Shown here piece by piece: positions 29,905-31,709 of a stretch of 64,000 bases of DNA; within the stretch, counting starts at the first letter, position 1, and each line of letters begins with the position of its first letter. Source of the DNA: Halocalculus aciditolerans (GTDB lineage: Archaea; Halobacteriota; Halobacteria; Halobacteriales; Halobacteriaceae). The position numbers and the translations under genes were made by a program. The notes below the pieces were generated by a model. It searched no databases, was not told where the DNA came from, and saw only the letters and a list, made by a program, of their open reading frames with translations. The stretch covers positions 62,001 to 126,000 of the forward strand of contig NZ_BMPG01000005.1 in NCBI RefSeq assembly GCF_014647475.1, written 5' to 3'.

Positions 29905-29951
29905 CGCGAACACCGGCGGTTTTTCGGGATGCGCGCGCCGAGTAGCGAGTG

Positions 29952-30713
29952 ATGAGCGACGACCACGTCCCGGACGACCACCCGCGCCACGACAGCCTCG
30001 TCACCCGCCACCGCATCGAGGACGGCGTCGAGCGCGGCATCACGAGCAAGCAGGGTCTCATCGCGGAGGGCCGCGGCGAGGCGTTCGATTATCTGCTCGG
30101 CGAGGAGACGATCCCGAGCGCGGACGACGCCGAGCGCGTCGCCGCCGCCTTGTTGTTGCGCGCCCGCCATCCCGTCCTCTCCGTCAACGGGAACGTGGCG
30201 GCGCTCGTGCCGGACGACATCGTCGACCTCGCGGCGGCGACCGGGGCGGACATCGAGGTGAACCTCTTCGGACGGACGGAGGAGCGGATGCGCGCCATCG
30301 CCGACTACCTCGAAGAACACGGCGCGGAGGACGTGAAGGGCCTCACCGGGGACGGACGGATTCCCGGGTTGAGCCACGACCGCGGCACGGTGGACGCGGA
30401 CGGCATCGGCGACGCCGACGTGGTGCTCGTCCCGCTGGAGGACGGCGACCGCGCCGAAGCCCTCGGCGAGATGGGGAAGACGGAGATCGTCGTCGACCTG
30501 AACCCGCTCTCGCGCTCCGCGCAGGTCGCCGCCGTCCCCATCATCGACAACATCATCCGCGCGGTCCCGAACATCACGCGGCACGCTCGCGACCTCGCGG
30601 ACGCCGACGACGCCGAACTCGCCGCCGTCATCGAGGGATTCGACCGGGAGGCGGCGCTGGACGCCGCCGAAGCGCGCATCCGAGAAGGCGCGACGCGCCG
30701 CGAAGACGACTGA
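29952..30713 (+). CDS. 4-phosphopantoate--beta-alanine ligase (PPS)
   Basis: A 253-residue protein of the archaeal phosphopantothenate synthetase family. It joins 4-phosphopantoate to beta-alanine with ATP, replacing the bacterial PanC route in CoA synthesis. Family regions include HPRHDSLVTRHRIEDGVERG near the start, LSVNGNVAALVPDDIV, and the late VVDLNPLSRSAQVAAVPIID with NIIRAVPNIT. The ATG at 29952 is preferred over an overlapping GTG one codon earlier. Pantoate kinase, its usual partner, is not in the window. Confidence 0.92.
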   Translation: MSDDHVPDDHPRHDSLVTRHRIEDGVERGITSKQGLIAEGRGEAFDYLLGEETIPSADDAERVAAALLLRARHPVLSVNGNVAALVPDDIVDLAAATGADIEVNLFGRTEERMRAIADYLEEHGAEDVKGLTGDGRIPGLSHDRGTVDADGIGDADVVLVPLEDGDRAEALGEMGKTEIVVDLNPLSRSAQVAAVPIIDNIIRAVPNITRHARDLADADDAELAAVIEGFDREAALDAAEARIREGATRREDD

Positions 30714-30782
30714 CCACCGTCCGTCGCTGACTCCGTCCCGACCGCAGTCACGGCGTCGTCCGTCACCGCAACCTTCACTATG

Positions 30783-30800
30783 TTTTAGGCAAACCTAAAA
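30783..30800. promoter_or_regulatory. iron-box-like palindrome (DtxR-type operator)
   Basis: A perfect inverted repeat has TTTTAGG at 30783-30789 and CCTAAAA at 30794-30800, with a CAAA spacer. It resembles the TTAGG...CCTAA operators of DtxR/SirR/Idr metal-dependent repressors. It lies where the promoter of the next gene should be, directly before a possible leaderless start at 30804. Binding would block transcription when the metal is abundant. Confidence 0.7.
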
Positions 30801-30803
30801 CGT

Positions 30804-30836
30804 ATGCGTCGCATCGACACGGAGCGGGTGAGCTAG
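30804..30836 (+). CDS. possible 10-codon leader ORF
   Basis: An ATG four bases after the palindrome opens the frame MRRIDTERVS and ends with TAG at 30834-30836, which directly abuts the ATG of the following gene. If transcription starts near 30804, this would be translated as a leaderless ORF and could couple translation of the next gene. It may equally be chance; nothing beyond position supports it. Confidence 0.3.
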   Translation: MRRIDTERVS

Positions 30837-31709
30837 ATGGTCGGCCGAACGCTCGCTGAAATCCACGAACGCCTCCAGACGCTCGCGACACCGAACGGTC
30901 CCTACTACCTCGCCTGCGCGCGGACCGGCGACCGGCCCACGCCCTCCGGCGACCGCCGGTACCCCGACCGCGCCACCGCCGCCACCGCCGCGGACCTCGT
31001 CGACGCCTACCGCGACGAACTCCGCACCTACGACCCCCGCCTCCCCCACTACGACGTCATCGTCCGCGAACTCCCCGCAGACACCGACGTCCCGCCGGCG
31101 GCCGGCCCGCCGACGACCGACCGCACCGAGTTCTGCCACGAGGTCGCCGCCGCCGTCTTCGAGAGCCTTTCTGGTGGCGGGTTCCGCGACGCCGAACGCG
31201 CCGTCATGGACGCCTACCTCGGCACCGCCGAGACCGTCACCGACCCGGACGACCTCTGCCTCCTCCTCCTCCGCAGCATGGGCGCGGTGCTCGACGAGAC
31301 CCTCGACGCCCACGAGCAGGAAGTCGTCCTCAACCGCGCTGCCGGCCGCCTCGACACCGTCCGACTCGGCGACGACGCCCTCGACGACGCCCTCGACGCG
31401 CTCGCCCGCGCCGGCCTCCTCACCGACTACCACATCGACGCCCCGCGACCCACCGGGGACGCCTCCGGTCCTCCCGAGGACGCCTCCCGGCCCGCCGCGA
31501 CCGACCACGTCGTCCGCCTCGACGGCTACGCGCTCTCCGAGGGCAACCACGTCCTCACGCTCCCGGTCGCCGTCGAACTCCTCCGCCGCCGCCCCGGCGT
31601 CGACGTCCAGTTCTCGCCCATCGCCGGCCCCGCGGCCGGGTTCCGCGTCGCCGTCGCCGACCGCGCGCGCCACGAGCCCTGCGGCCTCCTCCGCGTCCCC
31701 GGCCGCTAA
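30837..31709 (+). CDS. haloarchaeal protein of unknown function, possibly iron-regulated
   Basis: A 290-residue soluble protein. I do not recognise a named family. The N-terminus (TPNGPYYLACARTGDRPTPS) looks like a small globular domain. A middle part, about 95-200, is helical, and a linker rich in Pro and Asp precedes a C-terminal part with LDGYALSEGNHVLTLPVAVE. There are few cysteines and no metal-site motif that I can see. The perfect iron-box-like palindrome upstream suggests control by a DtxR-type regulator. Its stop overlaps the stop of the convergent ThiR-like gene. Confidence 0.75.
   Translation: MVGRTLAEIHERLQTLATPNGPYYLACARTGDRPTPSGDRRYPDRATAATAADLVDAYRDELRTYDPRLPHYDVIVRELPADTDVPPAAGPPTTDRTEFCHEVAAAVFESLSGGGFRDAERAVMDAYLGTAETVTDPDDLCLLLLRSMGAVLDETLDAHEQEVVLNRAAGRLDTVRLGDDALDDALDALARAGLLTDYHIDAPRPTGDASGPPEDASRPAATDHVVRLDGYALSEGNHVLTLPVAVELLRRRPGVDVQFSPIAGPAAGFRVAVADRARHEPCGLLRVPGR

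Follow-up and report, generated by a model that had tools for sequence, protein, structure and literature searches.

In the haloarchaeon Halocalculus aciditolerans, the gene for a 290-residue protein with DUF7552 and DUF7551 domains is preceded by an iron box and by a short open reading frame (mini-ORF) whose stop codon touches the start codon of the gene. The reading that we favor, and that comparison of sequences makes probable, is that transcription at this locus is repressed by iron and that ribosomes reach the DUF7552-DUF7551 gene by termination and reinitiation from a leaderless mini-ORF. The window is the whole stretch of DNA that was analysed, 64,000 nt in length, and the letters at positions 30783-31709 and in their flanks were read directly. 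The features of the locus, in window coordinates, are as follows:

30765-30772, plus strand: BRE-like element ACCGCAAC, agreeing with the ACCGAAAC consensus in 7 of 8 positions and placed as far from the box as in mini-ORF loci; 34 leaderless box genes have a similar element.
30774-30781, plus strand: TATA-like element TTCACTAT, about 26 nt 5′ of the ATG at 30804, a weak match to haloarchaeal TATA elements at the position of the TATA peak in the 34 leaderless box genes and in 26 mini-ORF loci.
30782-30801, no strand assigned: iron box GTTTTAGG-CAAA-CCTAAAAC, with the core TTAGGCAAACCTAA at 30785-30798.
30804-30836, plus strand: mini-ORF MRRIDTERVS followed by a stop, predicted to be leaderless, with its TAG abutting the main ATG in frame.
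30827-30831, plus strand: Shine-Dalgarno-like (SD-like) GGTGA within the 3′-terminal part of the mini-ORF, with 5 nt between it and the main ATG.
30837-31709, plus strand: main gene, 290 amino acids, with Pfam matches to DUF7552 (residues 5-78) and DUF7551 (residues 97-288).

The initial annotation had described a perfect 18-base palindrome at the promoter. Its arms, TTTTAGG (30783-30789) and CCTAAAA (30794-30800), are indeed perfect at 7+7, and pairing of G30782 with C30801 lengthens them to 8+8, giving an inverted repeat of 20 bases (30782-30801). The CAAA spacer that separates the arms is asymmetric, however, and the iron-box repeat is thus an interrupted palindrome. With up to three mismatches allowed, the palindrome has a single match in the window, versus 0.03 expected. 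The ATG at 30804 follows the palindrome after 3 bases (CGT, 30801-30803) and not four, as was first stated, and it opens a frame of 10 codons, ATG CGT CGC ATC GAC ACG GAG CGG GTG AGC TAG (30804-30836). The TAG (30834-30836) adjoins ATG 30837 of the 290-codon ORF, just as previously noted; the two ORFs share a reading frame and their ATGs are 33 nt apart. Two other roles for the palindrome were considered and rejected. A terminator or hairpin would not be expected 5′ of the predicted transcript start, and there is no T-run; a site serving a divergent gene is discounted because PPS_PS (29949-30713), the gene next upstream, runs in the same direction.

The core TTAGGCAAACCTAA is identical to the 14-bp inverted-repeat consensus TTAGGNNNNCCTAA, which has been proposed as the site of one IdeR/DtxR dimer (PMC8464063). 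This consensus occurs 23 times in the organism's own genome, versus 3 occurrences of a reversed control pattern, and the corresponding counts in four relatives of the same family are 13 and 0, 18 and 0, 19 and 2, and 21 and 1. Ten of the boxes in the genome lie 4-6 nt before the start codons of siderophore-type Peripla_BP_2 proteins with a lipoprotein-type signal, and others precede two FAD reductases, an HTH regulator and a ZIP-family transporter. Two DtxR-family proteins (L186 and L187) are encoded in the same genome, and L186 combines Fe_dep_repress, Fe_dep_repr_C and FeoA domains, the last as in SirR-type regulators. Haloarchaeal iron regulators have been named Idr, SirR and TroR (PMC11349517). 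Taken together, the DtxR/IdeR consensus, the siderophore-type genes and the two DtxR-family repressors lend comparative support to the metal-dependent control proposed at the outset, and by this comparison the box is a DtxR-type iron-regulator site. Many iron boxes are paired, about 35-36 nt apart and flanking the BRE and TATA elements (L007, L010, L017, L038, L081 and others); the upstream copy is often degenerate, and the gene in the window has the downstream copy only.

The position of the transcript start can be predicted from genes in which the box stands directly before a long coding sequence. Thirty-four such leaderless box genes, defined by a start codon 3-6 nt after the box and a length of at least 250 codons, have BRE-like and TATA-like elements at fixed places before the box, which puts the centre of the TATA element about 26 nt 5′ of the start codon. 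The BRE/TATA profile of 26 DUF7551 mini-ORF loci is the same. By this placement the 5′-end is predicted to fall on or close to 30804, and the probable transcript start is therefore the ATG of the mini-ORF, which would be leaderless. A weak spot in this prediction is the poor TATA element of the window. In work on Haloferax volcanii, leaderless transcripts are those with 0-5 nt before the start codon, and they make up 72% of protein transcripts (PMC4983044).

Relatives of the gene show how far this arrangement has been kept. Of the 292 genomes sampled from the class, 168 were found to have DUF7551, and an exact box lies within 330 nt upstream in 80 of 162 DUF7552-DUF7551 loci, the other 82 being without one. 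At 21 of the 80 box-bearing loci the main ATG itself follows the box by 1-5 nt, and at 59 the main start is at least 20 nt from the box (spaced loci). An ATG is present 3-6 nt after the box in 28 of the 59 spaced loci, and the next 12 positions together hold 3 ATGs. The mini-ORF that begins at this ATG ends within -20 to +3 of the main start in 20 of 28 cases, compared with 10 of 56 for the two other frames read from the same points and with 8.1 ± 1.4 for shuffled leaders (maximum 14 over 2000 trials). These 20 stop-adjacent mini-ORFs represent 11 genera by genus labels, and loci within one genus are not independent. Eight of the 28 stop outside this range, and several mini-ORFs end 9-18 nt before the main start. 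In a second set of 40 named loci, fetched later and sharing none with the first, 8 of 9 mini-ORFs end in this way (2 of 18 for control frames). An alignment-based scan of genome contigs yielded 80 named loci, and a single-protein scan yielded none. The shortest mini-ORF of the first set has 7 codons and the longest 40, one in the later set has 66, and the peptides are unrelated between genera, with no shared residues or codon runs. Judged by this conservation, the mini-ORF is more than a chance frame.

Not every spaced locus conforms. An ATG 3-6 nt after the box is missing from 31 of the 59, and several of these have a strong SD before the main start. The SD-like element of the window is also stronger in relatives (GGAGGTG in L053, AGGTGA in L188), and several other mini-ORF loci have no SD-like element at all. 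The anti-SD sequence behind these calls is the general one; the exact 16S tail CTGGATCACCTCCT was searched for in the organism's own assembly and not found. Haloferax-type leaders, which are near-identical to one another, constitute a natural experiment: some have ATG at the mini-ORF start and others ATC (L057, L063 and L115 versus L058, L059, L060 and L066).

Mini-ORFs also follow iron boxes at genes of other families. All eight box-bearing members of a FAD-reductase family, five of them from one genus, have a mini-ORF that opens 3-5 nt after the box and ends in an NTGA overlap with the gene, and again the peptides differ. The member encoded by the organism itself has a box, 4 nt, and a mini-ORF of 24 codons that meets the main start in ATGA. 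In the same genome an HTH regulator (HVO_A0261_N/FilR1-like) is preceded by a box, 3 nt, and the four-codon mini-ORF ATG TGC GGT CGA TAG, directly followed by ATG (L002:1483-1500, minus strand, TAGATG contact). Relatives of this regulator at L296 and L301 have mini-ORFs of 5 and 4 codons with ATGA. At L315 (G220), a box at 1501 on the minus strand precedes a 17-codon mini-ORF with an ATGA overlap to the next protein, whose N-terminus resembles the DtxR-like regulators found beside DUF7551 genes. When every box of five genomes was surveyed by looser rules, 13 frames were classed as mini-ORFs and 14 of 52 control frames passed too; because control frames pass this often, the survey is no test and we claim no overall frequency for the module.

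From these observations the following sequence of events can be proposed. When iron is sufficient, a metal-loaded DtxR-family repressor of the SirR/Idr type would occupy the 14-bp box and block initiation, its site being flanked by the TATA element on one side and the transcript start on the other. Under iron shortage, the RNA would begin at ATG 30804 or no more than a few bases from it. A start at this position implies a leaderless mRNA, on which the first start codon met by the ribosome is that of the mini-ORF. The ribosome would end translation at the TAG (30834-30836) and reinitiate at the touching ATG 30837, possibly aided by the GGTGA inside the mini-ORF. The mini-ORF would thus be a ribosome-delivery device, for which position and stop-start contact matter and the peptide does not. 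We infer in this scheme the identity of the repressor, the response to iron, the transcript start, the translation of the mini-ORF and the coupling. That position is kept without the peptide argues for ribosome delivery and not for a sensing peptide, and suggests that the mini-ORF serves to supply ribosomes to the iron-regulated gene that follows. The leaderless mini-ORF and the translational coupling anticipated by the initial annotation are in this respect supported by comparison, through the promoter geometry and through a position and stop-start proximity that persist across genera when the sequence itself does not.

A different and rather unlikely account accepts the DtxR-type box and treats the mini-ORF as incidental, with the first ATG left over from a leaderless start and translation of the main gene depending on an SD-like site of its own. 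The GGTGA before the main ATG and the GGAGGTG of L053 are what this account would lead one to expect, as are the relatives that have a box and an SD with no mini-ORF and the several Haloferax loci in which ATG has become ATC. It does not explain why stops cluster at the main start far above other frames and shuffles, in two families and in the later-fetched set, nor how mini-ORF loci without an SD would be served. Moreover, an SD was non-functional in de novo initiation on one Haloferax volcanii mRNA in a reporter study (reviewed in PMC7531240).

The same anatomy could instead belong to a repressive or attenuating uORF: most ribosomes that load at the 5′ ATG would drop off at its stop, and output of the main gene would be damped, perhaps according to translation state. 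A leaderless start draws ribosomes strongly, and coupling is expected to be weaker where mini-ORFs end 9-18 nt short of the main start. We judge this reading improbable. Neither a codon bias nor conserved residues are common to the peptides across genera, and contact or ATGA/TGATG overlap is the geometry of strict positive coupling in Haloferax volcanii (PMC6728339). An attenuator or sequence-specific leader peptide was discarded for a similar reason, there being no conserved residues or regulatory codon runs between genera.

There is very little to recommend a small functional protein as the product of the mini-ORF. A 10-codon mini-ORF with its TAG touching the ATG is common to five genomes of the window's own group (MRRIDTERVS in the window, MRRSSIREVA in G236, MARQPTRVVV in Halarchaeum rubridurum, MARRTTRKVT in Halarchaeum acidiphilum and MARHSERVVV in Halarchaeum nitratireducens), and the constant length and partly basic composition in these related species might be read as signs of function. 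From one genus to another, however, neither sequence nor length (7-40 codons) shows any relation, and even this close set shares just the start, an Arg at codon 3 and the SD-like end. Finally, the in-frame relation of the two ORFs in the window and its close relatives could mean that the main gene begins at ATG 30804 and that TAG 30834 is a sequencing error or nonsense mutation, an N-terminal extension that we reject as next to impossible since four independent Halarchaeum-type genomes carry this in-frame TAG as well, other genera have the mini-ORF in another frame than the main gene (ATGA or TGATG), and the conserved protein start is MVG.TL.

Ribosome delivery by the mini-ORF, the reading preferred here, may extend beyond this gene. 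On a wider and more tentative view, which we think possible and far from established, leaderless mini-ORFs would be a general translational adapter of the haloarchaeal iron-starvation regulon: the repressor site would fix the transcript start just behind itself, and a non-conserved mini-ORF would take the ribosome there and, by stop-start contact, hand it to genes that are unable to begin at that point. Under the same view, leaderless initiation and reinitiation that change with iron or stress may add a second layer of control atop DtxR repression, in at least three families (DUF7551, FAD reductase and HTH regulator). Leaderless mRNAs dominate in haloarchaea, and the supply of ribosomes to genes that do not start at the transcript start is a practical question for these organisms. 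What the locus offers is a promoter-plus-mini-ORF module that is defined and conserved and that has natural variants, namely the ATG/ATC differences in Haloferax and the leaderless and mini-ORF versions of the same gene. It also suggests that annotation pipelines miss such mini-ORFs.

The module would place the DUF7552-DUF7551 family, so far uncharacterised, in iron homeostasis. The main ORF had been called an unknown protein of 290 residues; the length holds, but the family is described in Pfam, with matches to DUF7552 (PF24422; 102.3 bits against a cut-off of 27, E 1.7e-29) and to DUF7551 (PF24420; 180.7 bits against a cut-off of 52.6, E 4e-53). Members of the family keep the MVG.TL start, and the nearest named relatives, from Halarchaeum species, are 67-69% identical. 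Its surroundings in the window are ordinary: the gene upstream, which has the same orientation, encodes a phosphopantothenate synthetase, and the other neighbours are a convergent ThiN-HTH gene and one for a dCTP deaminase. In other haloarchaea, a siderophore-type binding protein lies within 3 kb on the same strand at 24 of 80 DUF7551 loci, and FAD reductase, DtxR-like regulators, ferritin-like proteins and NifU-like proteins are neighbours in other genera.

A structural model of the DUF7551 domain alone is confident, with a mean pLDDT of 91 and a pTM of 0.88. Neither the full protein nor the DUF7551 domain had a Foldseek match at E≤0.001, and a PDB sequence search with DUF7551 gave no match. 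In a second look with the DUF7551 model, the best 50 matches were mostly H-NOX, TRAPP/Bet3 and V4R sensors, a weak likeness (Z 4.7-6.7 over about 95-156 residues) that spans most of the domain (window 31113-31706). H-NOX, TRAPP/Bet3 and V4R share one SCOP fold. A ligand- or heme-sensing role for DUF7551 is a lead from modelling and not a result, and the conserved C100, H101 and C141 could be ligands. A PAS-histidine kinase at L216:8033-9289 has a weakly DUF7551-like N-terminus (residues 8-73, E 1.3e-4), hinting that the domain is sensory.

With regard to known systems, the locus resembles DtxR/IdeR iron boxes in its identical core, in the DtxR-family proteins encoded by the genome and in the iron uptake genes found downstream of such boxes, and it resembles IdeR-repressed promoters in that the box overlaps the start region (PMC10317159). 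It differs in its archaeal TATA/BRE promoter and in having a single 14-bp site rather than a 19-bp double site, and binding here is putative. What appears to be new is the tying together, in archaea, of a DtxR-type box with a mini-ORF that is predicted to be leaderless and with stop-start contact. A description of this module was not found in the literature examined, which covered haloarchaeal iron and Ribo-seq work in part, and a prior description is possible.

Several systems share parts of the proposed translational step. Haloferax volcanii uORFs (Babski et al. 2016) are likewise small ORFs before genes, from a list that covered only 5′-UTRs of 150-250 nt (PMC4983044). Escherichia coli offers another parallel, with an AUG at the mRNA 5′-end and a small ORF before the gene, in 5′-terminal uAUG/uORF cases that differ in involving SD-leadered bacterial genes and in their variable effects (Beck et al., PMC4965119). 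Touching or overlapping ORFs were strictly coupled in 9 of 9 Haloferax volcanii pairs (Huber et al. 2019, PMC6728339), and our locus is like these pairs in its stop-start contact or overlap in a haloarchaeon and in its SD-like site within the upstream ORF; unlike them, its upstream partner is not a gene but belongs to a class of non-conserved mini-ORFs of 4-40 codons. Delivery of ribosomes by a short ORF has been put forward as a function in a 2025 review (PMC12548453). The closest case is that of the coupled small ORFs of leaderless mycobacterial transcripts, in which the small ORF stays linked to the gene but its protein is not conserved (Shell et al. 2015, PMC4633059). The haloarchaeal loci have the same layout, with a small ORF that runs from the predicted 5′-end to the main start and a linkage that is conserved when the peptide is not; the mycobacterial case is genome-wide and has the support of RNA-seq and ribosome profiling, whereas the one described here concerns the DtxR-box promoters of haloarchaea and is read from sequence.
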